Assembly (NCBI GenBank): GCA_014799955.1
Contig: JAAVHB010000026.1
Location: 1-38,173 of the forward strand
Source: Butyrivibrio sp.
GTDB taxonomy: Bacteria > Bacillota > Clostridia > Lachnospirales > Lachnospiraceae
Reading direction: 5' to 3'
DNA: 38,173 nucleotides
Position 1 is the first letter of the stretch. Each line of letters begins with the position of its first letter. Both the position numbers and the translations under genes were made by a program. The notes below the pieces were generated by a model that saw only the letters and a program-made list of their open reading frames with translations, was not told where the DNA came from and did not search any database. Shown here in pieces: positions 4,975 to 37,500 of this stretch.

Positions 4975-6630
4975 CTATCCGATTACACCGTTAATCTTCT
5001 CTCTCATGGCATCTTCTCCGATAATGTGGATGATGCTCCACAAATCGGGCGTGTTGGCTGTTTTCGTCACCGCAATCCTGACAACCTCAGCCACATCGGA
5101 AATACTGCCCTTGAAAGCGTCGGGCTGTGCCTTATATGCCTTCATATCCGAAGCAAAGCCGTGCCTGTCGGCAATACCCTTAAGCTTGTCAAACCACGCC
5201 TGATTGTCGTCCTCATGGCTGTAGCCCTCAAGATAATCCCTAAGAATCGCCGAGACCTCGTCCTTATCCAGTCTGAATCCGTCCTTTGCCTCGCTTTTTT
5301 CCGTGTCGAAAAAATATCCGATAAGCTCAAAAATCTGCCTCGCGTAAACAAAATCCTTGCGTCTTCTTTTCATGCCGATTCCCATGTAAAGTCTCAGAAT
5401 CGCGAGCAGCTTTTCTCTGTCGTCAAACCATACCTTTGCATTATCAGGCTCATTTTCCTCCGCCCACGATTTAAGGAAATCATACATTTCCTCCTCGGAA
5501 AGCTTTGCAAGCTCGTTTTTGCAGATATTGTGCAGCTTGTCCTTGTCAAAAAGTGCACCCGACTGGCTCATTTTTTCAACGGTGAAAGGAAATTCGCTTA
5601 TATCCTTGTCCGGAAATTTCTCGTACCACTCCTCAAAATTGGAGTTCAGAAGCGTCATGAGATATACCTTCATTGCGCGCGGATGATATCCGTCCTTACG
5701 GTAATAATCGAGCGAAAGCTCGGGGTCCTTTCTCTTGGAAAGCTTACGCTTTCCTCCCGTTTCCTCGTCAAATTTCATAAGATGCGCCGTATGCCCGTAC
5801 GCCGGCATCTTAAAGCCGAGCACATGGAAAAGCTCATAGTGCGTAGGCACGGACGCAAGCCACTCTCCGCCCCTTATGACCATTGTTGTTCTCATTAAGT
5901 GGTCGTCAACCGCATGCGCAAAATGATACGTCGGCACGCCGTCCCGCTTCAGAAGCACAATGTCGTGAATGTTTTCGGGGAGCTTTATTTCACCCATAAT
6001 ACTGTCGTTAAAGGTAATCTCCCTGCCCTGCTGTCCCTGTGAGCGCAGACGGAGCACATAGCTTTCACCTGCCGCAAGCTTCGCCTCTATCTCCTCAAGC
6101 GTGAGGCTGCGGCAAAGCGCGTATTCTCCGTAATATCCGGTCAGAACCTTTGCCTCCTCCTGTCGCACTCTCACCTTTTCAAGCTCCTCCTCGCCGCAGA
6201 AGCACGGGTAAGCAAGCCCCCGCTCCACCAGGCTTTTGGCATATGCATGATATATTTCCACACGCTGACGCTGAAAATACGGTCCGTACGCGTTCTGCGG
6301 AGCGTCATCGTCAAATCCTGCTCCCTCGTCAAATTCTATATCAAAATATCTGAGCACGTTTATGATGGTTTCCACAGCGCCGTCCACCTTGCGCTTCTCG
6401 TCCGTATCCTCAATCCTCAGATAAAAAACGCCGCCGTTTCTGTGCGCAATCCGCTCGTCCGCAAGCGCGCTGTAAAGATTTCCCAGATGAATGAAGCCCG
6501 TGGGACTGGGCGCCATTCTCGTAACCTGCGCCTTGGCGGGAAGCTTTCTATACGGGAATTTTTCCTCATAATAATCCGGCGTGTTCACCACGTCGGGAAA
6601 GAGGAGCTTTGCTAATTTTGCGTTATCCAT
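4975..6630 (-). CDS. gltX: Glutamate--tRNA ligase
   Basis: 551 residues from the ATG at 6628-6630, which has GGAGGG 7 bases upstream; the frame is open further upstream but without a start signal. The class I synthetase HIGH motif appears as PSPTGFIHLGN at residues 41-51 and the KMSKS loop as RKLSKRKDPE near residue 300. The protein charges tRNA(Glu) with glutamate using ATP. The long C-terminal anticodon-binding region (from about residue 370) is charged and helical. Length and motif spacing fit the longer GluRS form of Clostridia. Whether it also charges tRNA(Gln) cannot be read from the sequence. It has its own promoter (6673-6701) and terminator, so it is a single-gene unit. Confidence 0.93.
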   Translation of the reverse strand: MDNAKLAKLLFPDVVNTPDYYEEKFPYRKLPAKAQVTRMAPSPTGFIHLGNLYSALADERIAHRNGGVFYLRIEDTDEKRKVDGAVETIINVLRYFDIEFDEGAGFDDDAPQNAYGPYFQRQRVEIYHAYAKSLVERGLAYPCFCGEEELEKVRVRQEEAKVLTGYYGEYALCRSLTLEEIEAKLAAGESYVLRLRSQGQQGREITFNDSIMGEIKLPENIHDIVLLKRDGVPTYHFAHAVDDHLMRTTMVIRGGEWLASVPTHYELFHVLGFKMPAYGHTAHLMKFDEETGGKRKLSKRKDPELSLDYYRKDGYHPRAMKVYLMTLLNSNFEEWYEKFPDKDISEFPFTVEKMSQSGALFDKDKLHNICKNELAKLSEEEMYDFLKSWAEENEPDNAKVWFDDREKLLAILRLYMGIGMKRRRKDFVYARQIFELIGYFFDTEKSEAKDGFRLDKDEVSAILRDYLEGYSHEDDNQAWFDKLKGIADRHGFASDMKAYKAQPDAFKGSISDVAEVVRIAVTKTANTPDLWSIIHIIGEDAMREKINGVIG

Positions 6631-6712: not shown

Positions 6713-9340
6713 CTATTGTCCCGGCATATATTCTCCCAGATAGTTTTTCCCCGAATCGCCTGCCGTCCGGCTCTCCCCATACTCCCTCACAAGTCTTTCA
6801 CACGCCTCCCGCACAACATTCTCAAATTCTCTTGAGGATATGAGCGCGCAGCCCTCGCCGCGTATGATTATCTGCTCAAGCCCGTCCGAGGTCACAACCG
6901 TGATGTCGTAGCGCACGCCGTTTTCATGCGCGAACTGCTCAATATAGCTGTCGGCGGTCTGCGCCTCCCTCGTGTATACGACATGGATATTATGATAGTC
7001 AAGAAATTCCGTGTCATGCCCTTTAACCCTGTACGCGTCAAAAACAACTATCAATTCCGCCCCCGCGGTTGCCTGATAACCGCACATTATGTCAAGAAGT
7101 CTTCCTCTTGCGCCGTCAATATTATCTTTTGCAAGAGCATTAAGCTCATCCCACGCAAAAATAACATTATAGCCGTCCACGAGAATGTATTTGTCGCGGC
7201 GCGGTTTGGACTTGAAGGTTCTTACGACTGACTGCTCTCCTTTGGAACGCCTGCCGTAAAGCCCGCGGTGCTGTGCCGATTTGGCGCTTCGGTTCGCTCC
7301 GCCGAGCCTTGCGATAATTTCGTCTATCTCCTCCACCCCAAGCGCCTCGTCAAGCCTTGAAAGCATATCTGCGCTATTGGCTGACTTTTCTTCGTCAGAT
7401 GCGCTTTCGGAAAACTCAAAGCGCTTCGGAAGATGCATATACTCCTGCACCTCATACCACGGAACGGCAAAACCCGCGCCTTGTGCGCAGAAAACCGAAT
7501 CCGCCGTATTTTCAGTGTCCGCTTCCGGATTGTATTCCGAAGCTTCAATTACCTCCGCTTCATTGTGACAGGGCTTGTAGCCCGCAAAGCTAAGCGACAG
7601 GCTTCCGAGCCCATGCGAATATGCCGCGACAGCTCTGTTATACTCGTACATCTCCGAGACCGGAGCGGTTCCGGTTATCACGGTCATTTCACCCTCCGAA
7701 ACGGGAGTATCGAAATTTCCTCCCATTCGCTGTATGTCGTTTATCGCGCGTCCGGTGCCGTCGGACGGAATGCAAAGCCTGAATGAGTATACCGGCTCAA
7801 GCAGTCTGCTGTTTGCCTGCATAAGCCCCTGCCGTATCGCGCGGTAAACCGCCTGCCTGAAATCTCCTCCCTCAGTATGCTTAAGGTGCGCCTTTCCGGC
7901 GGCAAGCGTGATTTTTACGTCCGTAAGCTCCGCGCCCGTGAGAACGCCCCTGTGCGCCCTTTCGGTTATATGGGTGAGTATAAGTCTTTGCCAGTTTCTG
8001 TCAAGCTCGTCCTCGGGACAGTCCGATACCGCCGCGGTGCCGCTGCCCGGCTCTCCCGGCTCAATAATAAGGTGCACCTCCGCGTAATGGCGAAGAGGCT
8101 CAAAATGCCCGACTCCGTAAACCGTGTCGGTTATGGTTTCCTTGTATACTATTTTTCCCCTGCCAAGCTCAATATCAACTCCGAGGCGCTCCTTTGCCTG
8201 TCTTTTCAGAATATCCGTCTGCACCTCGCCCATAACGCGCGCAAAAATGCCGCCTCCGGCGCTCCGGGATATTCCAAGCTCAGGATTCTCCTCGCCGATT
8301 GCCTTAAGCCCCTCGTATACCGTCTGCTCATTACAGTCCGGTGGCAGAATAATACCGTATGAGACGACGGGTTCAAGAATCGGTTTAGGTCCCTCAGTTT
8401 CAAATCCGAGGCCTTCTCCGGCAAAGGTTTTGTCAAGTCCAGAAACGGCGCACACCGTGCCTGCCGCAGCCTCATCAAGCGTCCTGTATTTACTGCCCGA
8501 ATAAATTCTTATCGCGTTGACCTTGCCGCTCCACTCCGCTCCGTTTCTATCTCTTCCCGTAAGCAACGCGCGAACCTTTAAGCCTCCTCCCGTTATTTTC
8601 ATAAAGGTAAGTCTTTCGCCCTTATCCCTTGATATTTTGAAAACGCGCGCGCCAAACTCACCTGGATATAACGGCTCAGTCACCAATTCCGAAATAAGGC
8701 GCATAAGAGTGTCCACTCCGTCAAGCTTAAGCGCCGAGCCGTAGACGCACGGAAAAACACTCCGCTTTGCCACGGCGCGCGCAAGTGAATCTCTGCTTAT
8801 TTTTCCGGTTTCAAGATACTCGTCAAGAAGCTCCTCGTCGCACAGCGAGAGCTCCTCGTCCGTATTCTCTGCCTCAAAATCAATACAGCCGCCGTCAAGC
8901 CCCTCCTGCAACGCCTTCGTAATTTCCGCGCGCTGTGCGTGCTCCCTGTCCATTTTGTTTACAAAAACAAATACGGGAACGCCGTACTCGGCTAAAAGCC
9001 GCCATACCGTACGGGTGTGGCTTTGCACGCCGTCGGCGGCGTTTATAACCAGAACCGCGTAATCCAGAACACGGAGAACCCTCTCGGTTTCCGCCGAGAA
9101 ATCTACATGTCCGGGGGTATCAACAAGCGTAACGCTCAGACCGTCCCATTCAAGCTCCGCCTGCTTTGCAAAAACAGTGATGCCCCTTTCCTTTTCCACC
9201 TCATAGGTGTCAAGGAAGGCATCACCGTTATCAACCCTTCCGGGCTGTTCTATTACTCCGCTCTTGTACAAAAGCGCCTCTGTCAAAGTTGTTTTTCCGG
9301 CGTCCACATGCGCCAGAATTCCCATAACAATATGTCCCAT
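6713..9340 (-). CDS. TetM-like translational GTPase fused to a YacP/Rae1-type NYN nuclease domain
   Basis: 875 residues. Residues 1-640 follow the EF-G/TetM plan: P-loop AHVDAGKTT (10-18), DTPGH (74-78), NKMD (128-131), GSALK (201-205), then domains II-V ending near a TetM-like RLLEPVYSFRL segment (512-522). Residues about 600-715 are a low-complexity linker. Residues 717-855 form a NYN/PIN-like domain close to YacP (Rae1): VDGYNVI with Asp722 and Asn725, Asp768 in VVFDAY, QTADSYIE with Asp797, and TSD (817-819), so the acidic metal-binding set is present. Rae1 cuts mRNA in the ribosomal A site; TetM binds the same factor site and removes tetracycline. In the tip of domain IV the TetM-type SPVST loop is replaced by AGKAHLKHTEGG, so tetracycline protection is not assured. 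The gene begins 1 base after the stop of the FGGY kinase. Nuclease activity and target are inferred. Confidence 0.88.
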   Translation of the reverse strand: MGHIVMGILAHVDAGKTTLTEALLYKSGVIEQPGRVDNGDAFLDTYEVEKERGITVFAKQAELEWDGLSVTLVDTPGHVDFSAETERVLRVLDYAVLVINAADGVQSHTRTVWRLLAEYGVPVFVFVNKMDREHAQRAEITKALQEGLDGGCIDFEAENTDEELSLCDEELLDEYLETGKISRDSLARAVAKRSVFPCVYGSALKLDGVDTLMRLISELVTEPLYPGEFGARVFKISRDKGERLTFMKITGGGLKVRALLTGRDRNGAEWSGKVNAIRIYSGSKYRTLDEAAAGTVCAVSGLDKTFAGEGLGFETEGPKPILEPVVSYGIILPPDCNEQTVYEGLKAIGEENPELGISRSAGGGIFARVMGEVQTDILKRQAKERLGVDIELGRGKIVYKETITDTVYGVGHFEPLRHYAEVHLIIEPGEPGSGTAAVSDCPEDELDRNWQRLILTHITERAHRGVLTGAELTDVKITLAAGKAHLKHTEGGDFRQAVYRAIRQGLMQANSRLLEPVYSFRLCIPSDGTGRAINDIQRMGGNFDTPVSEGEMTVITGTAPVSEMYEYNRAVAAYSHGLGSLSLSFAGYKPCHNEAEVIEASEYNPEADTENTADSVFCAQGAGFAVPWYEVQEYMHLPKRFEFSESASDEEKSANSADMLSRLDEALGVEEIDEIIARLGGANRSAKSAQHRGLYGRRSKGEQSVVRTFKSKPRRDKYILVDGYNVIFAWDELNALAKDNIDGARGRLLDIMCGYQATAGAELIVVFDAYRVKGHDTEFLDYHNIHVVYTREAQTADSYIEQFAHENGVRYDITVVTSDGLEQIIIRGEGCALISSREFENVVREACERLVREYGESRTAGDSGKNYLGEYMPGQ

Positions 9341-9341
9341 A

Positions 9342-10937
9342 TCAGTGAACGCTGTCTACGGCAGCCCTTTCCACGGGCAGCGCCGCCCTGTATCTTTCCA
9401 TAAACGAGTCAAAGCCCGCAACGTCTTTTGCATCCGGCTCAAGCGATGTCCCCTTCATTCCCGCAAAAACCGCACGCTCCAGAAAAGCGCCAAGCGGCTC
9501 GTTCTCTTTTCTGCTCACCATATACGAGGCAAGCAGCGCGATGCCCCACGCGCCCCCCTCTCCCGCAGTTTCAAGCACCGTCACGGGCGCGTTCATTGCG
9601 GCGGCAAGAATTTTCTGTCCGGCAACGGGCGTCTTGAAAAGACCTCCGTGCCCCGTAATGCGGCGTACACAGACCTTTTCCTCCTTAAGAAGTATATCAA
9701 GTCCGACCTTCAGCGCTCCGAGCGACGCATACAGATGGGTCCTCATGAAATCGGCAAGACTTAAGCGGCTGTCGGGCGTCCTTACGAAAAGAGGTCTGCC
9801 CTCCTCAAAGCCCGTTATATGCTCTCCCGAAAAATAATTGAACGCCATCATTTTGCCGCAGTCCTTTTCGCCCTCGAGAGCCTTATTGTAAAGTATCTCA
9901 AAAAGCCTGTCCGCGGACAGCTCGATTCCGGCGGCTTTGGCAAATTCACCGAAAAGCCCCGCCCACGCGTTTAAATCCGACGTACAGTTGTTGCAGTGCA
10001 CCATTGCCACGCCGCTTCCGTCGGGAGTCGTAACAAGGTCAAGCTCGCCGTGAACCTTTTCAAGCTCCTTTTCAAGCACAACCATCGCAAATACCGAGGT
10101 ACCGGCGGACACGTTTCCGGTTCCCCTCTCCACGGAATCGGTTGCGGTCATTCCGGTTCCGGCATCGCCCTCGGGCGGGCAGAGCCTTACTCCGCTTTCA
10201 AGTTTCCCGCTTATATCAAGCAGCGCCGCACCCTCATTCGTAAGCGCTCCCGCGTCGTCGCCTGCGGTGAGTACCTTGGGCAGTATGTCCCGGATATCAA
10301 TCTTAAAGCCCTTTGAAGCGGCAAGTACGTTAAATTTTGCAAGCATGGCGGCATTATAGTCGAGCGCAGCGGAATCTATCGGAAACATACCGGACGCCTC
10401 GCCCACGCCCATAACCTTCATTCCGGTAAGGCGGTAATGGATATAGCCCGCAAGCGTCGTCAGATATTTTATCCTTCCGACATGCTCTTCCCCGTTAAGG
10501 ATTGCCTGATACAGATGTGCGATACTCCAACGCTGAGGTATGTTGAATCCGAACTCCCCCGTAAGAATCTCAGACGCCTCCTTTGTTACCGTGTTGCGCC
10601 AGGTCCTAAACGGCACAAGCAGCCTATCGTTTTCGTCAAGCGCGATATATCCGTGCATCATTCCGCTGACACCCATAGCCGCAAGAGAGGTTATCTCCAC
10701 ACCGTATCTGCTTCTCACGTCGTACGCCATTGAAGCGTACGCAGAGCGAAGCCCCGTGATTATATCCTCCTCGCCGTATGTCCATATTCCGTTCTCAAGA
10801 CGGTTTTCCCATTCGTGACTGCCTGAGGCAATGGGATTATTTGAGCCGTCTATAAGAACCGCCTTTATTCTGGTAGAACCGAACTCAATTCCGAGAACGG
10901 CTTTTCCGTCCCTGATAAACTCACCCGCAGCGCTCAT
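9342..10937 (-). CDS. FGGY-family carbohydrate kinase
   Basis: 531 residues. The N-terminal ATPase lobe starts with [17 protein letters not shown] (about 15-31), the first phosphate loop of FGGY kinases; the second lobe has the [13 protein letters not shown] region (about 275) and the adenosine loop [15 protein letters not shown] (about 430). The family phosphorylates sugars such as xylulose, ribulose or glycerol with ATP; the large size and [10 protein letters not shown] segment are closest to xylulokinase- or ribulokinase-like members, but the substrate cannot be set. GGGAGG lies 8 bases before the ATG. No sugar isomerase or transporter is nearby. It is followed after 1 base by the GTPase/nuclease gene, so the two are probably translationally coupled. 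A response-regulator-like direct repeat lies upstream at 10992-11007. Confidence 0.88.
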
Positions 10938-25847: not shown

Positions 25848-27626
25848 TTAATACTTGCTGAAATCTCCGTCCAATGAGATTACGGGCTCGCTGCTGTAGC
25901 TGGGTCCGTTATCCATAAAGGAGTTGCCCTTACCTGCACCCGAAAGCAGTTTGTACTGACCGATAAGGCTCTTAAGCGTATTAGCCTGATTTGAAAGCTC
26001 CTCACTGGCAGCAGCACACTGCTCGCTGGTAGCCGCATTTGTCTGTACAACCGTCGAAACCTGAGCAATAGCCTGGTCAATCTGGGAGATTGCCGTTGAC
26101 TGGTCGTTGGAGGATACCGCAATGTTGCTGATTAACGCTACGATTTCATCGATGGACCTTACGATTTCATCAAGAGACTTTGCGGTTTCTTCGGCAATCT
26201 TTGTACCGTTTGCAACCTTGTGGATTGAATCCTCAATTATCTCAGCCGTCTCACCTGCTGCCGAAGCACTCTTTGCGGCAAGACTTCTTACTTCCTCGGC
26301 AACTACCGCGAAGCCCTTGCCGTGAACGCCTGCTCTTGCTGCCTCAACCGCTGCGTTAAGAGCAAGAATATTTGTCTGGAACGAAATATCGTTAATAGTC
26401 TTAATAATTTTGGAAATTGTTTCGGAGGACTCGTTGATGCTGTCCATAGCCTGAATCATGGACTTCATCTGCTCGTTGCCGGAAGTAGCCATTTCCTTAA
26501 CATTGTTTACCAATACGTTAGCCTTGCTTGCCTCCGTAGCGTTCTCCTTAGTACGCTGTGTAACCTCATCCATAGACGCGGTAACCTGCTGGAGCGCGCT
26601 TGCCTGCTCTGTTGAACCCTGTGCGAGAGCCTGGCTCGCATTTGCAACCTGCTCGGAACCTACCGTAATCTGAGCGCCCGCCTCTCTGATATTGCCGAGA
26701 GTTGCGTTCTGGTCCGCAATCATCCTCTGAATTGCCTTGCCGAGAAGGTCTCTGTCTCCTCTCGGAGTAACCTCCATACTCAAATCGCCCTTTGCAATAA
26801 CATCGGCAATTCTCGCCTGCTCCTTGGTTGCGCTGACCATAACGCTGAACTCATCCATCAACTCGCCGAGGTCATCGTCGTTAATCTTCTGACAGTCAAC
26901 ATCAACATCTCCGACAGCAAGCTTCTTAGCTGCAGCAGAGAGCTTCAATACGGGTGCCGTGATTGCTCTGATTAATACAGCGGCATACATAATTGTTATA
27001 ATGAATGCCACTACCGCTATACCGATAAGTACGCCGGTAAGAATGGTATTTTCCAATTTGATACTGTCATTGCGGCTCTGTACGTCCTCCTCTATGAGCT
27101 TTATCAAATCCTCCAAAGCAACTTCGGCCTTGCTGGCTATTTCTCCTCCTCTGCCGTTCATGTCCTCAATCGCTTCCTGAACCTTACCGGCTTCAACCAT
27201 CTCAATCTCAGATTCCATTGAGTCCATCCATTCGTTTATGGTGTCCTCAACCACCTGATACTGAGTAACTACATCAGACTCAAATACACCCATTCTGTTC
27301 TCAAACAAATCAAGATAACTGCGGATACCGGCCTCATATGCTGAAATTGCGCTCTCCTGCTCTTTAATACTAGCAGGGTCATCGGGATACATAAACAGAA
27401 TGTTTCTGATATGTACTCTTACATTGGTGAACTCGCTGAACGCTCCCATCAGATAGAACTCGCCTCTTGCGTAATTCTCATAAAGACTGGTGCGGCTCTT
27501 ATTGATGCGGCTCGATGAAACCAGACCGACAGCCGCTACAATTACCAGCAATACCAGCATTATAGCGCTGAATGTCGTAATTTTTACCCTTACGGTCATA
27601 TTCTTAATTGAAAATTTTTTCTTCAT
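25848..27626 (-). CDS. Methyl-accepting chemotaxis protein
   Basis: 592 residues. A membrane segment at about 17-36 and a second near 198-226 enclose an extracellular helical sensor of about 160 residues, of the four-helix-bundle type. A HAMP domain follows (about 225-280), then a long coiled coil with the conserved hairpin tip DISFQTNILALNAAVEAARAG near 414-434, which binds CheA and CheW. It is the receptor of this operon. The C-terminus (SLDGDFSKY) has no NWETF-like CheR docking pentapeptide. Glutamate/glutamine-rich methylation stretches are present. Signal unknown. Last gene of the operon, 18 bases after cheW. Confidence 0.92.
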   Translation of the reverse strand: MKKKFSIKNMTVRVKITTFSAIMLVLLVIVAAVGLVSSSRINKSRTSLYENYARGEFYLMGAFSEFTNVRVHIRNILFMYPDDPASIKEQESAISAYEAGIRSYLDLFENRMGVFESDVVTQYQVVEDTINEWMDSMESEIEMVEAGKVQEAIEDMNGRGGEIASKAEVALEDLIKLIEEDVQSRNDSIKLENTILTGVLIGIAVVAFIITIMYAAVLIRAITAPVLKLSAAAKKLAVGDVDVDCQKINDDDLGELMDEFSVMVSATKEQARIADVIAKGDLSMEVTPRGDRDLLGKAIQRMIADQNATLGNIREAGAQITVGSEQVANASQALAQGSTEQASALQQVTASMDEVTQRTKENATEASKANVLVNNVKEMATSGNEQMKSMIQAMDSINESSETISKIIKTINDISFQTNILALNAAVEAARAGVHGKGFAVVAEEVRSLAAKSASAAGETAEIIEDSIHKVANGTKIAEETAKSLDEIVRSIDEIVALISNIAVSSNDQSTAISQIDQAIAQVSTVVQTNAATSEQCAAASEELSNQANTLKSLIGQYKLLSGAGKGNSFMDNGPSYSSEPVISLDGDFSKY

Positions 27627-27644
27627 AACAGTAAACTCTCCTTT

Positions 27645-28163
27645 TTATGATTGTTCTTTCTCTTGATTGTCTTCAATTGCATCTAAAGCATCTTGCTTAA
27701 TCAGCTTATCCGGGTCCAACAGCAGTTTCACCGTATCACCCGTTCTTGCCAATCCGTATACATATTTCCTTTGTTCATTATCCTTCTTGCCTAAAGCCGG
27801 CGGAGGAACAATGTCGTCATCCAGTATTGTGTCTACTTCCGCGATTCTCTCGACTATCAGACCAAGCACCGTTGATTTTACGTCAATCACGATAATGCAC
27901 GTTCGGTCGGTATACTCTGTCGGATCCATCTTGAATCTGACGCGGACATCAATTACGGGAATGATTTTACCTCGGAGGTTTATCAGACCTTTTATGTAAT
28001 CTTCTACCTCAGGGATTGCAGTTATAGGCTGCATGGGAATTATTTCCTTTACATAACTGATGCTGATACCGAAGTATTCCTTTCCTGTCTGGAAGGTCAT
28101 GAACTTTCCTGTCTGCGCGTCTTCGCCTTCCTCGACCAGTTCTTCAATCAGTTCTTCGGCCAT
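27645..28163 (-). CDS. cheW: Chemotaxis adaptor CheW
   Basis: 172 residues with the SH3-like CheW fold: FMTFQTGKEYFGISISYVKEI, then INLRGKIIPVIDVRVRF, and ending with a KLIKQ stretch. It links the receptor to CheA in the signalling array. Acidic ends (EELIEELVEEGED at the start, IEDNQEKE at the end) flank the core. AGGAGATAG lies before the ATG. It starts 3 bases after the cheA stop. Confidence 0.92.
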   Translation of the reverse strand: MAEELIEELVEEGEDAQTGKFMTFQTGKEYFGISISYVKEIIPMQPITAIPEVEDYIKGLINLRGKIIPVIDVRVRFKMDPTEYTDRTCIIVIDVKSTVLGLIVERIAEVDTILDDDIVPPPALGKKDNEQRKYVYGLARTGDTVKLLLDPDKLIKQDALDAIEDNQEKEQS

Positions 28164-28166
28164 GTA

Positions 28167-30287
28167 CTATCTCCTTTCCTCGTCAAGAATCAGTCCGGCA
28201 ATGTCCAGAATCAACGCGATACTGCCGTCGCCAAGCTGCGTACAGCCGGAAAGCCCTCTAACCTTCTTGACGTAAGAAGGTATCGGCTTGACTACTATCT
28301 CCTGTTCCTGGAGCAGCTTGTCAATCAAAATACATATCTGCTCGCCCTCATGTTCAAGAACCACGACGATTCCGTCCTCAATATTGCATACCGAGCCCGG
28401 CAGGTCGTACTTCTCATTCAGGCGTATAAACGGATAGCATTCTCCGCGAAGAACAATGTATTCTTCTCCGCTCGGCTCCTGTATGAGTGAATCCTCTCCC
28501 ATTCTGACAAACTGTTTGATTGCAGCTGTTTCAATCACAAACGAAGAGTTTCCTACCTGTACCACTATACCATTTATAATAGCCAATGTCAGCGGTATAA
28601 CAAGAGTCATCTCCGAACCCTCGTTTTCCACGCTCTCTATATCAAGTCTGCCACCGATGGATTGAATATTCTTGACAACAACGTCCATACCGACGCCTCG
28701 TCCCGAATACTCGGTAACCTCCTCCTTGGTGGAAAATCCGGGCAACGTAATAAATCTGAAAATTTCTTTTTCTTTAAATTCGCTTATGGGCTTATTCTCA
28801 ATAAGACCCTTTGACAGCGCTTTGTCGTACAGCTTTTCCTTATTAAGGCCTTTGCCGTCATCCTTTACGCTGATATAAACCTTTCCGCCCTCATTCTTGG
28901 CTTCAAGGGTAATTTTTCCTTTGGCGGACTTACCGTTTGCGGTACGCACCTCGGGATTGTCTTCTATACCGTGGTCCACAGAGTTACGCACAAGGTGCAT
29001 AAGCGGGTCCGTGATATGCTCGATAATATTCTTATCAACCTCGGTATTCTCACCGATTACTTCAAGTTCGATATCCTTGCCGAGCTTTCTCGAAACGTCA
29101 AAGACAATACGCTTCATCTTCTGGAAGGTATTTGTCAGCGGCATCATTCGCATGGACATTATAATGTCCTGAAGCTCCGTGGTATTCTTGGAAAGCTGGG
29201 CCGCAGCCTTAGAAAAATTACTGAGGTCAAGCCCCGGCACTTTTAAGTCGGGATTCTGCAAAACCGTAGCCTCGGCAATTACAAGCTCTCCGATTAAATC
29301 CATAAGAGCGTCCATTTTTTCGACATTTACGCTGATGATCTGCTGCTTCGGCTGATTCTTCGCTAATGTCTTTCCCTTTCCGGTTTCCTTTGTCTTTACG
29401 ACGTAATCACCGGGCATTGGCTGCTGTCCGTCGCTCTTATCGGGCTTTTTCTCGTCATCCAGATTAATGACAATCGGCGCGCTTTCGCGTCCAAGCTCCA
29501 CAAGGGCTTTTCCGTACTGCTCCGAGTTAATCTCTTCAAAATCTATATGCTCTGCCTCGGCGCTGTCAATCAGCTCAAGAATCTCTTCCTTGCTGCTCTT
29601 GGTCTGCAGCAGCATATAGAAGCCTTCCGCAAGAATCGTATCTCCGCTGGCCTCATTGGAAAGAATATCCTCCGGGGTGTACAGAAGGTCCTCCGCAACC
29701 TCTTTGAGCGCGTATGTAGCAGAATATGCGCGGATGTTGCTCATCTGCGTATCGTTTCTGTAATGAATGACAATCTTGTAAAAATGACTGTCCGCCTCTG
29801 CCACGGGCGCAACATAGAACTGGGTCGGCTCCTCTTTCTTATTGGCCTTGGGAAGCCTGATTCCCTGTTTCTTTATTTCTCCCTTGATACGGCTAAGGAA
29901 TTCATCCAAATCCTTGACAAGCTGACTTTCGTCTCCGTCCGGCGAATCTCCGTTTTTGATTTTATCCAGCTCACCGTTAATAAAATCCGATACGGCAAGC
30001 ACTTTTTCCACCAATTCAAGATGGGGTACATTCTCAGGATGCGATTCTCTTAAGTAATAAAAAACATCCTCAAGTTTATGGGAGACTTTGGTGAGGTTTT
30101 CATACATCAAAACTCCCGATGAGCCCTTAATGGTGTGCATACAACGGAAAATCTCATTGATATCGGCATCGTCGAAGCATTCTGCATCTTGTTTCTCTAA
30201 TATTATGCCTTCAAGTTTTTCGAGAAGCTGACCGCTTTCGTACAAAAACATGGCAAGCATACTGTCTGTATTAAATTCTTCTGCCAT
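28167..30287 (-). CDS. cheA: Chemotaxis histidine kinase CheA
   Basis: 706 residues. The phosphotransfer domain has FRCMHTIKGSSG with the phosphorylated His51. A P2-like linker region (about 160-265) with a charged stretch follows, then the dimerisation helices (DALMDLIGELVIAEATV near 325), the ATPase with HLVRNSVDHGIEDN, DDGKGLN and GRGVGMDVV, and the C-terminal CheW-like domain. It receives the receptor signal and passes phosphate to CheY and CheB. GGAGG precedes the ATG. The P2 part is larger and more degenerate than in the Bacillus enzyme but its docking role cannot be judged. Confidence 0.94.
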   Translation of the reverse strand: MAEEFNTDSMLAMFLYESGQLLEKLEGIILEKQDAECFDDADINEIFRCMHTIKGSSGVLMYENLTKVSHKLEDVFYYLRESHPENVPHLELVEKVLAVSDFINGELDKIKNGDSPDGDESQLVKDLDEFLSRIKGEIKKQGIRLPKANKKEEPTQFYVAPVAEADSHFYKIVIHYRNDTQMSNIRAYSATYALKEVAEDLLYTPEDILSNEASGDTILAEGFYMLLQTKSSKEEILELIDSAEAEHIDFEEINSEQYGKALVELGRESAPIVINLDDEKKPDKSDGQQPMPGDYVVKTKETGKGKTLAKNQPKQQIISVNVEKMDALMDLIGELVIAEATVLQNPDLKVPGLDLSNFSKAAAQLSKNTTELQDIIMSMRMMPLTNTFQKMKRIVFDVSRKLGKDIELEVIGENTEVDKNIIEHITDPLMHLVRNSVDHGIEDNPEVRTANGKSAKGKITLEAKNEGGKVYISVKDDGKGLNKEKLYDKALSKGLIENKPISEFKEKEIFRFITLPGFSTKEEVTEYSGRGVGMDVVVKNIQSIGGRLDIESVENEGSEMTLVIPLTLAIINGIVVQVGNSSFVIETAAIKQFVRMGEDSLIQEPSGEEYIVLRGECYPFIRLNEKYDLPGSVCNIEDGIVVVLEHEGEQICILIDKLLQEQEIVVKPIPSYVKKVRGLSGCTQLGDGSIALILDIAGLILDEERR

Positions 30288-30325
30288 ACTTCCTCCAATC
30301 TTCAGAATTTTCTCATACTCCGCCT

Positions 30326-30718
30326 TTAAATCAGCTCAAGTTTTTTGAGTACTTTTTCAAATTTTTCAACATCTATCGGTTTTCCCGCATAGGCTTCACA
30401 CCCAAGCTCGAACGCCATCTTTACATTACGTTCATCGTTTAACGCCGTGGTCATAATGACCTTAACGCGTTCTTCCTTAGGAATACCCTTCTGCGCTTCA
30501 ATTCCGCGGATTGCTTTAAGGACCTGATATCCGTCCATGACAGGCATCATAACATCAAGACATGCCAAATCGTAAGGTTCTCCGTCCTCATGCGCCATCA
30601 TAAAGGCATCCACCGCTTCTTCACCGTCAACCATCACGTCGCATTCTCCGTAGCGTGACAGCATATTGTCCATGAATTTACGGCTGGCGAAGTCATCTTC
30701 TGCCAATAAAATCTTCAT
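30326..30718 (-). CDS. cheY: CheY-type response regulator
   Basis: 130 residues, a single receiver domain. LLAEDDFASR gives the acidic pocket, Asp55 in LACLDVMMPV is the phospho-acceptor, Thr in IMTTALND and Lys in EAYAGKPIDVEKF complete the site. The sequence of the switch region and the place between cheB and cheA mark it as the CheY of this system. Whether it binds a flagellar switch is not shown; no flagellar gene is in the window. GAAAGGAG lies upstream. Confidence 0.88.
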   Translation of the reverse strand: MKILLAEDDFASRKFMDNMLSRYGECDVMVDGEEAVDAFMMAHEDGEPYDLACLDVMMPVMDGYQVLKAIRGIEAQKGIPKEERVKVIMTTALNDERNVKMAFELGCEAYAGKPIDVEKFEKVLKKLELI

Positions 30719-30750
30719 TAAAACCCTGCTCCTTTCTCCTTTGATGTTAT

Positions 30751-31770
30751 CTATTTGCTTAACAGGCTGTATACCTTTCCTGCAATCGCCGAAAGCGGCA
30801 TACGGTTCTGCACCGCGCCTATGTCAAAAGCGACCTTTGGCATTCCGTAGACAACACAGCTTGCCTCGTCCTGACCGATTGTCTGGGCGCCCGCATTGCG
30901 CATTTCCAGAAGTCCCTTGGCGCCGTCGCCGCCCATACCGGTAAGGATAACGCCTACCGCGCTTTTTCCCGCAACCTTGGCAACCGAACTGAACAGTACA
31001 TCCACGGATGGACAGTGACCGCTCACTCTTTCGGTACCGCTGCATTCCACCTGATAAATTCCTCCGACCTTGACAAGCTTCATATGCCTGTCGCCCGGTG
31101 CGATAAGCACCTGTCCCGGAAGAACCTTATCTCCGGTTTCCGCCTCCTTCACGGCAACCTCGCACTGGTTGTTAAGACGGTCCGCATACATCTTGGTAAA
31201 GCCCGGGGGCATATGCTGTACGATGACAACTCCCGGAATGTCTCTTTTGAACCTTCTTACCACCTCATAAATTGCCTCCGTGCCTCCCGTCGAAGCACCT
31301 ATTGCAACAAGGCGGTCCTTCCCTACGGTGATATGCTCGGATATGGAGTTGACTTCAACGCGCTTTAATTTTCCAACCTTTGCGGTGGAAGCGATTTTCA
31401 CCTTGACGGCAAGCTCCTGCGTAAGGAAAATATTGAGCTGTTCCCTGTTCAGGCTGTCAGGCTTATTAACGAAATCGACCGCGCCTGCCTCAAGAGCGTC
31501 AAACACCTTATCGCTCAGAGAGCTTATCATAACGACCGGAAGCGGGTACTGCGGCATAAGTCTTTTCACGAACTCTATTCCGCTCATCCTCGGCATTTCA
31601 ACGTCAAGCGTCATAACGTCGGGCTTATACTTGATAATAGCGTCTCTCGCCTCATAGGCGTCCTGCGCCTGAGCAACGACCTCAATATTGGGGTCGGAAT
31701 TAAGCCCTTTGACAAGCATATTGCGGAACATCACAGAGTCGTCAACTACTAACACTCTAATCGGTCTCAT
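30751..31770 (-). CDS. cheB: Chemotaxis methylesterase CheB
   Basis: 339 residues from the ATG at 31768-31770, with GGGGA 6 bases upstream and 1 base after the cheR stop. The receiver domain has VVDDSVMFR and phospho-acceptor Asp56 in TLDVEMP. The esterase domain has the serine in GASTGGTEAI, histidine in QHMPPGFT and aspartate in TGMGGDGAKG. It removes methyl groups from receptor glutamates and deamidates glutamines, resetting sensitivity together with CheR. Confidence 0.95.
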   Translation of the reverse strand: MRPIRVLVVDDSVMFRNMLVKGLNSDPNIEVVAQAQDAYEARDAIIKYKPDVMTLDVEMPRMSGIEFVKRLMPQYPLPVVMISSLSDKVFDALEAGAVDFVNKPDSLNREQLNIFLTQELAVKVKIASTAKVGKLKRVEVNSISEHITVGKDRLVAIGASTGGTEAIYEVVRRFKRDIPGVVIVQHMPPGFTKMYADRLNNQCEVAVKEAETGDKVLPGQVLIAPGDRHMKLVKVGGIYQVECSGTERVSGHCPSVDVLFSSVAKVAGKSAVGVILTGMGGDGAKGLLEMRNAGAQTIGQDEASCVVYGMPKVAFDIGAVQNRMPLSAIAGKVYSLLSK

Positions 31771-31771
31771 T

Positions 31772-32581
31772 TCAAGTCCCCTGCTTTCTATAAATTGATG
31801 GTTGTACATACTGAAACTGTGTTTTATGCCGGTCAAGGCTTTCGGTTGTCCCTATAAAAAGGAAACCGCCCGGCTCCATAAAATCGTATATTTTTTTGAT
31901 AAGCTGATATTTTACATCGTCCTGAAAATATATCATCACATTGCGCAGAAAAACAATGTGAAATTTTCTTTTGAAGGGAAACGGACTCATCAGATTAAAC
32001 TGCCTGAAAATAAGCTCCTTTTTCAGCTCATCCTTAACCTCATACTCCTCAGCGCTCACTTTTTTGAAATAACGCTGTTTCCATTTAGCCGGAAGCGGCT
32101 CTATATCTTCTTTAAGATAGACACCCTTTGTAGCGTGCTCAAGAACTCTTGTCGATACGTCGGTTGCAAGCACCCTCGTATCCCATGATTTGTGCTCGAT
32201 TCCGAAAAAATCAAGCAGCACCATCGCAAGCGTGTACGGCTCCTCTCCGGTGGAAGATGCTCCGGACAATATACGCAAATCCCTGTCCCTTGCCGCCTTC
32301 GCCTTCGCCCACGGAAGAGCAACGCGCGTCATAAAGTCGAAATGCTCACTCTCCCTCATAAAATAAGTGTGGTTTGTGGTAAGTACATTCACTATATCGG
32401 TTGCCTCTGGGCTGTTGGGGTTTGCCTCAACCTTGGACATATAATCATCATATCCGGAGTAGCCGTTCCGTATGATATAGTTCTCCAATCTTCCGCTTAC
32501 AAGAACTCTTTTCTGACTCAGGTCTATTCCGTAATTCTTCTTCATGTACGCCACAATACGTCTAAATTCATTGTCGTTCAT
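31772..32581 (-). CDS. cheR: Chemotaxis methyltransferase CheR
   Basis: 269 residues. The N-terminal helical part (RIVAYMKKNYGIDLSQKR) is followed by the SAM-dependent fold with TTNHTYFMRE, SGASSTGEEPYTLAM (the nucleotide-binding motif) and FLRNVMIYF. It methylates receptor glutamates. GAGGAGG lies 8 bases before the ATG. It is the first gene of the operon, driven by the promoter at 32683-32711. Confidence 0.95.
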   Translation of the reverse strand: MNDNEFRRIVAYMKKNYGIDLSQKRVLVSGRLENYIIRNGYSGYDDYMSKVEANPNSPEATDIVNVLTTNHTYFMRESEHFDFMTRVALPWAKAKAARDRDLRILSGASSTGEEPYTLAMVLLDFFGIEHKSWDTRVLATDVSTRVLEHATKGVYLKEDIEPLPAKWKQRYFKKVSAEEYEVKDELKKELIFRQFNLMSPFPFKRKFHIVFLRNVMIYFQDDVKYQLIKKIYDFMEPGGFLFIGTTESLDRHKTQFQYVQPSIYRKQGT

Positions 32582-32749: not shown

Positions 32750-34444
32750 TTAACTCGGAATACTGTCTCTCAGACAGAGTGCTCCCCATCCGGTTTTTCT
32801 CGACGGCAGTTCCTCTCCGGGCAGCGGCCTTGCGCCTCTTATAAGATAAGCCTTGACTTTTTCGCCGTACAGATACATATCGTTTCCCTTTATTATTCCC
32901 CATTCCATCAGAAGCGCGGCGCTTCCCGTGACAAACGGCGTCGCCATCGAGGTTCCGGTTCTTGCCGTATAGCCTCCTCCCGGAGACGGCGCCGTTATGC
33001 CGACGCCGGGCGCGACCAGATCCGGCTTTATCGTCATCACGTTCCTCGTATAGCCCCTTCCCGAAAAATCCGCGTACGCCTGGAGTCGCGCGTCGTACGC
33101 GCCGACGGTTATGACCTTATATGCCGTCGAGGGAATCGTCAGTGTCACCTCCGGCATCGTTCTTGTAAATCTTGTGTCCGTGCTGACAAAGCTTCCCGCC
33201 GGAAGCCACATATCGTATCTGCCGTCCCTTATACGCATGGGCTGAAATTCAAATCTCCATATTCCCGGCATGATATAATTACTGCTTTTGTCCGCCGCAA
33301 GCTGTATGAAAATCTCCTGGCTTGTGCTGTACGGCGCGGACTCGCCGTAATAAACATAAATTCTCGTATTTCCCGCAAAATAGTGCAGTATCCCGTTTTC
33401 GTTGTATATGGGTCCGATTCTTCTCCCGTCCGGAGCTATTAACGTGACAAGAAAATCGTCGGAATAGCTTTTCCAGAGCTGAACATCAACGGACGGCTCA
33501 AACTGTCCTATGACAAGCTCCTCGGTTACCGTCCGCTCAGCCAGCACGCCGCCGACATGAACGCCCTTTGCCGCCTCGTTTCCCGAACCGACAACAATGA
33601 CGTTCTTCCACATTTCGCTGATTTCGTTGAGATAGGTTTCCAGAAGCGACGTTCCGTTGTGGGAGCCGTAATTGTTCCCGAAGCTTAAATTTACCGCTAT
33701 CGGTCTGCCGAGCGAAGCCGCTTTCCTTATAACGTAATTCACAGCCTCCATAAGACGTGCCGTGCTGAAATACTCGTCGCCGCCGAGCTTTACTATCAGA
33801 AGCTCCGATTTATACGCAACCCCTCTGTAACGTCCGCCCGATGCTCTGCCGTTGCCCGCGGCAATACCCGCTACATGCGTGCCGTGCCCGCTCGCGTCCG
33901 TCACCGGAACTAACTCCAGTCTTTCCTGCCTGCCCGATTTGCCGAGCGCCTCGTTTATAACTGCTCTGCCGTAAACCTTATCCGCCGCCTCGTCAAATAT
34001 CTCGATTATCCTTGTGCTGCCGTCCTCATTGATAAAATCGGGATGCGCGTAATCGATACCGCTGTCGATTACCGCCACGATTACCCCCTCCCCGCTCAGT
34101 CCCTCGGCGCCACGCTGAACCGAGTCGATACAGGATATATCGACACTGTAGTCAAGCTCATAGAAAAGCTTTTTGGGCTTCTCTATGTAAATTACCTCCA
34201 TAAGACGCGAAAACTCCTCAATCCTGCTTTCCTCAACATACGCAAGAGCGTATCCTCCCGACAGGATTTTCAGCTCGGCGCCGAAGCTTTGCGCCGCCGC
34301 CTCTATGTCGCCGCAGTAACGTATTATAAGTTCCCATTTTCTTGTTTTCTCGTCAAAACCCGTATTAAGGTCACTGGTCCGCGAACGCTCATCCTCGGTA
34401 AGCCCAAGCGCAAGATTAAGCTGATTTTCTATTTTCTGGTCCAT
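32750..34444 (-). CDS. S8 family peptidase, Csp-like
   Basis: 564 residues from the ATG at 34442-34444; an upstream TTG in frame is less likely. No signal peptide. The N-terminal prodomain (KWELIIRYCGDIEAAAQSF to about residue 95) is of the CspB type. The catalytic triad is complete: Asp127 in VIDSGIDYAHPDF, His187 in GHGTHVAG and Ser499 in GTSMATP. About 150 residues between the Asn-Phe segment (VNLSFGNN, about 255) and the serine block form an extra beta-rich domain, as in the Csp germination proteases of Clostridia. Such enzymes can cleave cortex-hydrolase zymogens in spores, but many related copies have unknown targets. Confidence 0.87.
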   Translation of the reverse strand: MDQKIENQLNLALGLTEDERSRTSDLNTGFDEKTRKWELIIRYCGDIEAAAQSFGAELKILSGGYALAYVEESRIEEFSRLMEVIYIEKPKKLFYELDYSVDISCIDSVQRGAEGLSGEGVIVAVIDSGIDYAHPDFINEDGSTRIIEIFDEAADKVYGRAVINEALGKSGRQERLELVPVTDASGHGTHVAGIAAGNGRASGGRYRGVAYKSELLIVKLGGDEYFSTARLMEAVNYVIRKAASLGRPIAVNLSFGNNYGSHNGTSLLETYLNEISEMWKNVIVVGSGNEAAKGVHVGGVLAERTVTEELVIGQFEPSVDVQLWKSYSDDFLVTLIAPDGRRIGPIYNENGILHYFAGNTRIYVYYGESAPYSTSQEIFIQLAADKSSNYIMPGIWRFEFQPMRIRDGRYDMWLPAGSFVSTDTRFTRTMPEVTLTIPSTAYKVITVGAYDARLQAYADFSGRGYTRNVMTIKPDLVAPGVGITAPSPGGGYTARTGTSMATPFVTGSAALLMEWGIIKGNDMYLYGEKVKAYLIRGARPLPGEELPSRKTGWGALCLRDSIPS

Positions 34445-34461
34445 TTTTTCACCGCGCAAAA

Positions 34462-34540: not shown

Positions 34541-37500
34541 TCACACCGCGAGCGCTTTCCCGAGGCTTACCGAATATATATAACAGCCTCCGATTTTTTT
34601 CCCCGTAACCTTCTTTATAGCGTCGCAATAAAGCTCAAGCTGCTTGCGGTAGCGCCCGATTAACACATTTTCGCCGTCCGCGCCGCGAGGCACTCTGTCC
34701 GTCTTGTAATCGACGACAAACACGCTGTCGCCTTCAAAATAAAAGGCGTCAATGATACCCTGCACAAGCACGGTTTCGTCATGCGGGCAGCTTTTGTCTA
34801 TCGCGTCCGCTCCGACCTCCATCGCAAAGGGCTGTTCCCTGTAAAGCTCTCCCCTTGCCGCCGCCGCCTTCATTGCCGTACCTAAAGGCGAGTTGATGAA
34901 GGTTTCAAATTTCCGGCAGTCAATCAGGTTAAAATATTCCTCTCCGATGCGCCCGTTGCGCCTCCACTCCTCAAGCTGCGCGCCGACTGATGAGGCGTCA
35001 TTTGTCCTGCCGTAATCAAGAAGCTCAAAAACCTTGTGGTAGGCGTTGCCCCTTAAGGTTCCGCCCGCGCCCTGCGGCTCCTCGATAAATCGCGGAACAG
35101 GCTTTACGCTGTCCGGCGGAACCACCTTTGCCTCAAGGCTTTCGTTTTCCTCCATCGCCTGATGCTTTAAATCAGAAACCGAATACTTGGTGCGCAGCGA
35201 AAGCACGTTTGCGTACGGATAACGGTACTCAAGAATTTTTCTCACTTTACCGTACACGGCTTCGTCCGGCTTCACCCTCATAAACTCGCCGAGCGCTTCT
35301 CCGAACGAGACGGCGCGCTCTCCGACGGGATTTGCGGCGTTTTCCGTAAGCCTGTCGAGCGGAATGTAATTTACGGCAAAGCGTCCGTTCTTCACGGGCT
35401 GCAAGGTACACGGCATAACTATGTCCAGATAGGATTTGTTTTCGGTTATGTACGCCATGTTCATATGCCCCGTGCCGCATACCCTTTCCCACCGGGCGCC
35501 CGCAGTCTTTAAGCCTGTGATTCCCAGAAGGATAAGCTTTCGCGCGGCTCTTGTCATGGCGACGTAAAGTATGCGCAGCTCCTCTCCGATGCTGTCGCAG
35601 GTCATTCTTCGGGCAAGCATATGCTTATACGGAATTTCCTCCCTCACACGACGCTTTAAATCAACCGACGACATTCCTATGCCGAAGGCGCTGTCGTAAA
35701 TCAGGCTGTCGCTCACGTCGCGGAGATTGTATTTCTGTGCCGCGTCTCCGATTATGACAACCGGAAATTCCAGACCCTTGCTCTTATGTATGCTCATTAT
35801 GCGCACGACGTCGTCCGCTTCGGATACCGTGTGGGCTTCGCCGTAATCCACATCGTATTTCTGTATTTTTTCCACATACCTGAGGAAATTGAAAAGTCCC
35901 GAATAGCTGGTCTGCTCAAACTCCTTCGCCTTCTGCACAAGCATATCCAGATTGGCGCGCCGAAGCGCGGCGGCTCCCATGGTTCCCACATAGTCGTAAT
36001 AACCCGTGCCGTATATAAGCTGCGATATCAAATCCCTGATAGCCGTGATTCTCGATTTTTCTCGGTATTCCGAAAGCCATTCGATAAAACCGCGGCATTT
36101 TGCGGCAAGCTCGCTCTCCCCCTCTGCATAAAGCAGAACACAGTCATAAAATTCCGTTCTCCTGCGCCTTCCCTTTATAAGCGCAAGCTCCTCCGCCGAA
36201 AAATAGGCAAAATACGAGCGCATTACTCCCGCAAGCGCGATTTCCTGCCTCGGATTGTCAATAATCCTAAGCAAATCCATCACGCATTTCACCTCATACG
36301 CGTCAAAATAACCCGTGGAGGACTCGTAAACGCACGGAATGTCATAGCTTTTTAAAACCGACGCGTATACGGGACCGGATTTTTTATCGCTTCGCAGAAG
36401 TATCACAATATCCCTGTATTTAAGTCCGCCGTTTTCCTCCATAAGGCTCTTTATCCTGTCCGCCGCCATATGAGCGTATACCTCGCCCGCCTGCGCGCCG
36501 GCTTCGTCAAGCTCCGCCTTGTCCGCAATCATCAGCTCCGTAACGTCGTCAAGCTCCTCCTCAGAATCCCCTCCGTAATTGAGCTGCACATCTTTAGTAT
36601 ATTCAATGCCTCCCACGCCCTTTTTCATCGCCATAAAAAAAACATCGTTTATACAGTCGAGCACATTGGCGCGGCTTCTGAAATTCCGATGAAGTTCAAC
36701 TCTCGCCAGGCTTCCCCCGTCGGGGCTGTAGGTATCGTATTTTTCCATAAAAAGCTCAGGTCTTGCCATGCGGAATTTGTAAATGCTCTGCTTTACGTCG
36801 CCGACCATGAAGGTGTCCGGGCTGCCGAAGCGCTCCTTTGACACGGCGCCTAAAATATATTCCTGAACAAGATTGCTGTCCTGATACTCATCTATATAAA
36901 TTTCGTCGTACTCCGAAGAAAGCTCGTCCGCGGTTTCGGTATAGAATATTTTTCCGTCCTTACGCTCAATCAGTATGTCCAGCGCGTAATGCTCGATGTC
37001 CGCGAAATCCACAATGTTTTTTTCCGTTTTGGCGTCCCTGTACGCCGCCGCAAACGCCTTTGTAAGCGCAACTATAACCTCCGCGTGTCCGGCGCAGGCG
37101 CAGAGCTTTTCGTACTGGCTTGAAGTATCGGCAAGATATTTTTCACATATTGAGGCGTGGCGTTTCTTAATCGCGTCCCGTATGTTTTTTACTCTCTCCT
37201 TAAGCTCGGCGCAGGCGCCTCTCGCGGCGGGCAGCCGTCCGAAATCAAAGGAAAGCGCCCTTTCAAGTCCATGAAGCGAATCCGCCTTTGCCGCGGCAAG
37301 AAAAAGCTCCTTCTCGGCATAAAACGAATCCTTATAGCAGGCGGGACCCGAGGGCTCGTCGCACAGCCTGAGTATCGCCTCATACTCTTTCGCGCACTCA
37401 AGGCATATCGCCCGTATATATTCCACGGTATCCTTTACAATCGGAAGACTCTCGTATTCGTCCGCAGAGCACACCCGATATACCGAAAGGCATTCGTCAA

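Follow-up and report, generated by a model that had tools for sequence, protein, structure and literature searches.

A Tet-like translational GTPase carrying a Rae1-type NYN nuclease domain appears to have taken the place of free Rae1 in fusion-carrying lineages

The window analyzed here is the whole 38,173-nucleotide contig JAAVHB010000026.1 from Butyrivibrio sp., and on its minus strand at positions 6713-9340 (ATG at 9340) a single uninterrupted open reading frame (ORF) of 875 amino acids joins a Tet/EF-G-like translational GTPase to a NYN nuclease domain of the YacP/Rae1 type. Judged from gene content and gene order, the fusion appears to have taken the place of free Rae1 in the lineages that carry it. 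With modest confidence we favor the reading that it would be a GTPase-borne Rae1, a ribosome-dependent mRNA nuclease acting in Rae1's role with the GTPase as its docking module. Few bacterial enzymes other than Rae1 are known to cut mRNA within ribosomes that are translating. A natural fusion that seems to replace Rae1 and to drop its C-terminal ending would allow a test of how the enzyme finds its ribosomes, by asking which of the two parts is responsible for recruitment and which for cutting, and whether the cut is gated by GTP.

The GTPase body spans residues 1-594 (7559-9340) from the G domain to domain V, with Pfam matches to GTP_EFTU (residues 3-220, E 4.8e-55), EFG_IV (395-510) and EFG_C (512-594) and with domains II and III giving weak matches below the Pfam cut-offs. 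A conserved extension (residues 595-640, 7421-7558), defined by the alignment of 81 fusions, follows domain V, and a linker that the same alignment shows to be poorly conserved (641-717, 7190-7420) leads to the NYN_YacP domain (719-859, 6764-7186), which is matched by PF05991 at E 1.7e-45 and 155.5 bits against a cut-off of 24.6. A tail of residues 860-875 (6716-6763) completes the protein. The GTPase part matches both EF-G and TetM structures, and the NYN part matches the Bacillus subtilis YacP structure (PDB code 5mq8) at E 1.8e-22. An earlier interpretation of the window made from the letters alone (the sequence-only reading) had described one protein with these two parts at the correct coordinates, leaving out the strand; its extent of residues 1-640 for the GTPase needs correction, as the canonical body ends near 594 and the remainder is the conserved extension. 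Each of the 80 named loci compared yielded an ORF with the same two parts (844-980 amino acids, the ORF stopping 4-8 codons short of the end of the tblastn match in three of them), and together with the long NYN frames in 139 of 294 order genomes this rules out a frameshift joining two genes or a chimeric contig. A plus-strand reading was rejected, frame 1 of the same stretch holding many stops.

The alignment comprises the window protein and 80 kept loci, the best 80 of 353 confirmed relatives; because the query of that search was the fusion itself, the sample leans to close kin. Asp-722, Asn-725, Asp-768, Asp-797, Glu-801, Ser-818 and Asp-819 show no variation across the 81 fusions, and the columns of Asp-722, Asp-768, Asp-797 and Asp-819 hold aspartate in all 30 standalone proteins as well. 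These four are the residues that had been proposed for catalysis, and their loss in homologues, named beforehand as a ground for giving up the proposal, is not seen. Asn-725 and Glu-801 are assumed to belong to the predicted active site. A regular expression for the active site missed 6 of 113 fusions; five of these are in the 81-row alignment with the residues present, and the sixth (L172) is a 788-amino acid frame with a cut NYN end.

The distribution of the domain was read in samples of the order, the class and the phylum, which overlap in some genomes. In the order sample 268 of 294 genomes have NYN_YacP, and frame length, read for all 268, gives 139 long (fusion) frames of 500 amino acids or more, 128 short frames of 240 or less and one split case (G094); 26 genomes have none, among them one (G076) in which the GTPase is apparently cut at a contig end. 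Joining of NYN and GTPase in one frame was seen directly for the listed rows, and the other fusion calls rest on frame length. Four of the 139 long frames (516-645 amino acids) are probably cut frames, and all 139 genomes match a 12-row profile of the fusion's own GTPase part (A2) at E 1e-90 or better, the weakest matches being those of G033 (2e-91, a short frame) and G216 (2.8e-104). Among 147 class genomes there are 53 with the fusion, 46 with a standalone gene, one split case (G336) and 47 with neither, and no class genome has two NYN matches above the cut-off. The architecture is widely conserved, as the sequence-only reading had held possible. In the phylum sample 85 of 149 genomes match, each once (G465 below the cut-off), with 11 long frames that include families f78, f82, f125 and f136. 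Taken together, the order and class genomes with fusion frames represent 26 family groups; in one of them, f1, the fusion is carried by 105 of 112 domain-bearing genomes, and nine further f1 genomes are without the domain.

In G094 (C121) and G336 (C2) the GTPase and the NYN domain lie in neighboring frames on one strand, and from this layout both are read as fusions split by a frame change or an assembly error. Two unannotated records from human feces entered as "Bacteriophage sp." (MT835514.1 and MT835563.1) contain NYN_YacP-like stretches with 62.6% and 48.4% identity, which may be bacterial DNA in the record. The 518-kb Monoglobus record named "plasmid 12" (NZ_OY725736.1, L139) looks like a piece of the chromosome because both secA and the fusion lie on it.

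The fusion and the free gene seldom occur together. The window genome has a single NYN_YacP, which is the fusion, and only five order genomes have two matches (G108, G126, G044, G017 and G137), one of which (G137) is a single frame matched in two pieces. Of the 268, G108 and G126 alone combine a fusion with an intact free gene. A second match in G409 was discarded as below the cut-off and inside an ORF that we take, from its sequence, to be Lrp/AsnC-like. The two forms also alternate within genera: in g134, G130 has the fusion and G135 free rae1, and in g166, G343 has the free gene, G315 the fusion with a remnant of rae1, and G409 the fusion with no trace of it.

The site at which free rae1 commonly lies, between rlmB and sigH, shows what has become of the gene. 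In G108 and G126 the order is cysS-mrnC-...-rlmB-rae1-sigH, with a small ORF between rlmB and rae1 in G108; the cysS, mrnC, rlmB and sigH labels were given by similarity and are presumptive. The rRNA-related roles of mrnC and rlmB are presumptive as well, RlmB (YacO) being documented (PMC6613710). Among 20 fusion genomes examined at rlmB-[rae1]-sigH, 15 have no rae1, meaning no tblastn match at E <= 1e-3 in the stretch, three have remnants and two have the intact gene. The window genome (L197) is one of the 15, with mrnC-rlmB-sigH and no rae1 between. The remnants, at L142:5616-6123, L143:5786-6023 and L201:1489-2112, come from fusion-bearing genomes of three family groups (f2, f17 and f42): G044, of the same genus as G108 and G126, retains pieces of Rae1 (residues 2-114 and 140-173) that have lost material and contain an in-frame stop, G017 retains residues 3-30 alone, and G315 has a copy riddled with stops. 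RlmB was also sought in 31 hand-picked genomes and the site fetched in 20 of them, 4 with free Rae1 and 16 with the fusion. All four free genes lie between rlmB and sigH, and the fusion genomes comprise 12 with rlmB and sigH and no rae1, G315 with its remnant, and three with neither rae1 nor sigH in the stretch. Coordinates in 11 standalone genomes place rae1 directly after rlmB in seven (G135, G343, G020, G384, G198, G263 and G107) and about 1.8-1.9 kb from it in G146 and G363; with the two remaining genes elsewhere, the statement that free rae1 always lies at rlmB-sigH was withdrawn. The remnants and the within-genus cases count as separate evidence for the replacement, although clustering by lineage weakens the alternation count.

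The two forms also differ at the C-terminus, where most free Rae1 proteins close with a basic stretch. In 124 of 126 standalone genomes the PF05991 match extends to position 160 or beyond (of 166), compared with 59 of 139 fusion genomes; not counted are the split G094 and two genomes with broken or short matches (G137 and G162). The tail carries a mean net charge of +2.3 in the 30 free proteins and of -1.7 in the 81 fusions. An E.xR ending, a pattern set after inspection of the free Rae1 tails, is present in 29 of 30 free proteins and in 11 of 113 fusions, and is absent from the window protein; a stricter first pattern, [ED]K.R[RK], gave 17 of 30 and 1 of 113. Arg-166 of B. subtilis Rae1 is the second arginine of this ending, and its change to proline is a suppressor allele counted as loss of function (PMC6613710). 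The loss of the ending in most fusions, taken with this allele, suggests that a docking function of the Rae1 tail may have been taken over by the GTPase.

The GTPase part is that of an EF2-family translational GTPase, with the motifs AHVD.GKTT (G1), DTPGH.DF (switch II) and NKMD (G4) invariant in the 56-row alignment A1 and with domains IV and V present. The best match of the window protein among the NCBI curated models is tet_protect (NF012153), at 384.5 bits against a cut-off of 775; two other fusions (Monoglobus, 397.1; R. bicirculans, 410.0) and two unfused relatives (421.1 and 426.6) fall in the same range, whereas a real Tet(M) used as control scores 873.9. The EF-G model TIGR00484 gives 272.7 bits against a cut-off of 659.4, and a separate EF-G-like frame of 715 amino acids is located elsewhere in the window genome (C133). 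Identity to the Tet rows listed is 26-30% over about residues 1-590. Loop III of domain IV (residues 483-495, KAHLKHTEGGDFR, 7856-7894), aligned to the TetM loop with its Leu-505 and Ser-508-Pro-509-Val-510, keeps the TetM length and differs in sequence, reading x-K-H-T-E-G-G-D-F-R with nearly no variation (Lys-487 in 79 of 81 fusions; His-488, Thr-489, Gly-491, Gly-492, Asp-493 and Arg-495 in all 81). Leu-486-Lys-487-His-488 occupy the positions of Ser-508-Pro-509-Val-510, and no SPV occurs in the fusions. The label "TetM-like" is sound for the fold and not supported for tetracycline protection.

By loop III and profile similarity this GTPase can be assigned to a subfamily that also exists unfused, with proteins of about 650 amino acids (L154-L166, for example L154:1486-3426). 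All 13 unfused relatives carry KHT[E/S]GGDFR, with serine for Glu-490 in some, and they have a like C-terminal extension, the tryptophan being absent in some, soon after which the proteins end. Both unfused GTPases that were scanned fall below the NCBI Tet cut-off and match no model above its cut-off. On the A2 profile full-frame fusions score about 714-1059 bits among the matches listed and the 13 unfused relatives 620-805, ranges that overlap with weaker unfused GTPases also existing, and TetM and TetO score 356 and 354 bits. In the fusions the extension has Tyr-603, Asp-608, Ser-615, Phe-617, Cys-618, Gly-621 and Trp-628 in 81 of 81 rows, as is also the case for Cys-591 just before it. The column of His-592 is histidine in 71 fusions and column 620 in 74 (glutamine in the window protein), and within residues 591-640 (7421-7570) these two columns with Cys-591 and Cys-618 could possibly form a metal site or another conserved contact.

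A quick tree of 59 GTPase rows, with Shimodaira-Hasegawa-like approximate likelihood ratio test (SH-aLRT) support only, places the 43 fusions in one clade (support 100) inside the unfused group, the nearest unfused row being the protein of G050 (support 80). Fusions of six family groups (f2, f17, f37, f38, f42 and f65) sit close together in this tree, which suggests lateral spread. At E <= 1e-160 the unfused GTPase is found in 28 of the 128 order genomes with a standalone gene and in 3 of the 46 such class genomes, and among 63 hand-picked genomes it is found, above 400 bits, in 17 of 36 standalone genomes and in none of 20 without NYN. The statement that it occurs only where Rae1 is present was withdrawn on four class counter-examples (G317, G345, G320 and G359); the occurrence of the unfused GTPase does not follow that of Rae1, and so the two show no general sign of having been partners before fusion.

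From these observations a course of events can be proposed in which a Tet-like translational GTPase, also existing unfused, would have gained a Rae1-type NYN domain, after which free rae1 would have become redundant in the fusion-carrying lineages and would usually have been lost. The GTPase part has all its motifs intact and a conserved loop III of its own, and it should therefore dock on the factor site of the ribosome, where domain IV, as in the family, would read or clear the A site. The NYN domain, on its variable linker of about 75-77 residues, would then cut the exposed mRNA at or beside the A site as Rae1 does, and a stalled or specially coded message would thereby be destroyed. Because domain IV and the NYN domain should not both fit the A site, the two steps would have to follow one another, separated by GTP hydrolysis or by release. 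The replacement of free Rae1 suggests that the NYN part continues in Rae1's function, and it also lends support to the earlier proposal of action on ribosomes; nothing was found in this analysis for drug-bound ribosomes or for the cleavage of rRNA that had been suggested alongside. A stronger form of the proposal, put forward tentatively and as less probable than not, is that of a GTP-controlled factor whose GTPase would pick ribosomes by the state of the A site and hand the codon to the tethered nuclease, about half of the sampled order species (139 of 294) then using it in place of the free enzyme for Rae1-type decay or ribosome rescue.

Several observations weigh against reading the fusion as a GTPase-borne Rae1. 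The tree of the NYN part (89 rows, 155 columns) groups 23 of 30 free rows together, and the label fused or free changes three times; the other seven free rows, two from genus g100 (G108 and G126) and five of which four are from the window's family, fall among the 59 fusion rows at forks of weak support (SH-aLRT 65-92). More than one fusion, some re-splitting or the poor resolution of 155 columns would explain this, and a single origin of the NYN part, entertained at one stage, was withdrawn because of it. The alternation of fused and free forms is clustered by lineage, and the counts ignore kinship. Neither form is found in the 26 order and 47 class genomes noted above, so the NYN function is dispensable; two genomes (G108 and G126) keep both genes, and in two standalone genomes of the window's family (G247 and G270) rae1 lies on a different contig from rlmB. 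The 59 fusions with a long tail speak against a simple loss of the tail, the E.xR pattern was chosen with the free tails in view, 4 of the 47 class genomes without a NYN domain have the unfused GTPase at E <= 1e-160, and the A-site conflict requires the sequential mechanism. The free Rae1 proteins of the window's family that lie inside the fusion NYN rows (L017, L022, L025 and L028), two of whose genomes (G247 and G270) have rae1 away from rlmB, are possibly re-split fusions.

A rival explanation gives the two parts separate functions. In such a neutral joining the NYN domain acts in the manner of free Rae1, while the GTPase has its own task, such as the release of paused ribosomes, and has the nuclease only as a passenger. 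Unfused relatives that share loop III and have a like extension, the variable linker, the two copies split by a frame change and the free NYN rows among the fused ones, which may mean that the parts can separate again, are all in keeping with it. The spread of fusion frames over 26 family groups and the loss of the free protein's ending in most fusions, which suggests dependence on the GTPase, argue the other way, and we consider neutral joining unlikely though deserving of attention.

A role in antibiotic resistance is less likely than the docking of a Rae1-type nuclease, and we hold it to be rather improbable. Under this explanation the fusion is a tetracycline ribosomal protection protein to which the NYN domain adds an RNase step, as suggested in Atkinson 2015 (PMC4342817), where such proteins are classed as Tet, and tet_protect is the best curated match. 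The fusion scores lie far below the cut-off and the Tet(M) control, and the 105 of 112 f1 genomes make the gene look resident and not like an acquired resistance gene. Loop III of TetM, which is held to displace tetracycline (PMC4750697), is replaced in the fusions by a near-invariant sequence of their own without SPV, although this is not conclusive because Tet(M) with S508A or the triple change S508A/P509A/V510A can be active (PMC4750697). The NYN domain might instead target rRNA or tRNA in ribosome maturation or damage. Free rae1 often lies beside rlmB and mrnC, both presumably rRNA-related, and such targets had been proposed early on for NYN domains according to Atkinson 2015 (PMC4342817); the characterized homologue Rae1 is described as cutting mRNA on ribosomes (PMC12320835, PMC10100781 and PMC6613710), and we hold this option to be very improbable. 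A GTPase-borne Rae1 is retained as the favored reading.

Upstream of the fusion gene an FGGY-family kinase gene (9342-10937, minus strand) ends with its stop codon 1 nucleotide before the ATG, and the two genes likely share a transcription unit. A kinase-sized ORF is at the same position in G237 (L147) and FGGY matches are present in L040 and L062, the pairing being confined to close kin. Downstream is a class I (Glu/Gln) tRNA synthetase gene (4975-6630, minus strand, ATG at 6630). The kinase recurs in 2 and the synthetase in 1 of the 80 loci, and these neighbors are weakly informative. The window also holds a chemotaxis cluster at 25848-31836 (methyl-accepting chemotaxis protein, CheW, a CheA-like protein, a response regulator and CheB), followed by a subtilase with a CspB prodomain (32750-34459) and then by a UvrD-like helicase-nuclease (34541-38068).

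The architecture is already in print. Tet proteins of ten Clostridiales species are described in Atkinson 2015 (PMC4342817) as having acquired a YacP-like NYN RNase domain whose activity may serve resistance, a publication that the sequence-only reading did not know; its expectation of a generic database name was right ("translation factor GTPase family protein"). This was the sole relevant paper found in the literature search on a published fusion or its function. The EF2 section of that paper does not mention replacement of free Rae1, and no description of it was found in the literature searched; Condon 2018, whose title concerns the distribution of Rae1, may already mention such fusions. 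The apparent replacement, the non-canonical GTPase and the loss of the tail ending in most fusions are new here. The fusion is present in many gut Clostridia, and surveys of the gut resistome should not count genes of this type as tetracycline resistance unless this has been tested.

Compared with known systems, the fusion resembles B. subtilis Rae1/YacP (PDB codes 5mq8 and 5mq9), which is described as entering or cutting in the ribosomal A site (PMC6613710, PMC10100781 and PMC12320835), in having a NYN domain whose conserved acidic residues are the same and in the nearly constant number of one NYN_YacP per genome. It differs in that the NYN domain sits behind a translational GTPase, in that the E.(M/L)RR-like ending is mostly lost, the window protein being without it, and in that the window gene is not beside rlmB and sigH, whereas free rae1 lies within 2 kb of rlmB in 9 of 11 genomes. 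With Tet(M) and Tet(O) it shares the EF-G-like GTPase and the length of loop III, and differs in scoring below the curated cut-off, in the loop III sequence, in the C-terminal extension and in the added NYN domain. The Tet-NYN proteins of Atkinson 2015 (PMC4342817) have the same architecture by their description and would appear to be of the same subfamily. The unfused sister GTPases (L154-L166) have the same loop III and end at the extension, without the linker or the NYN domain.

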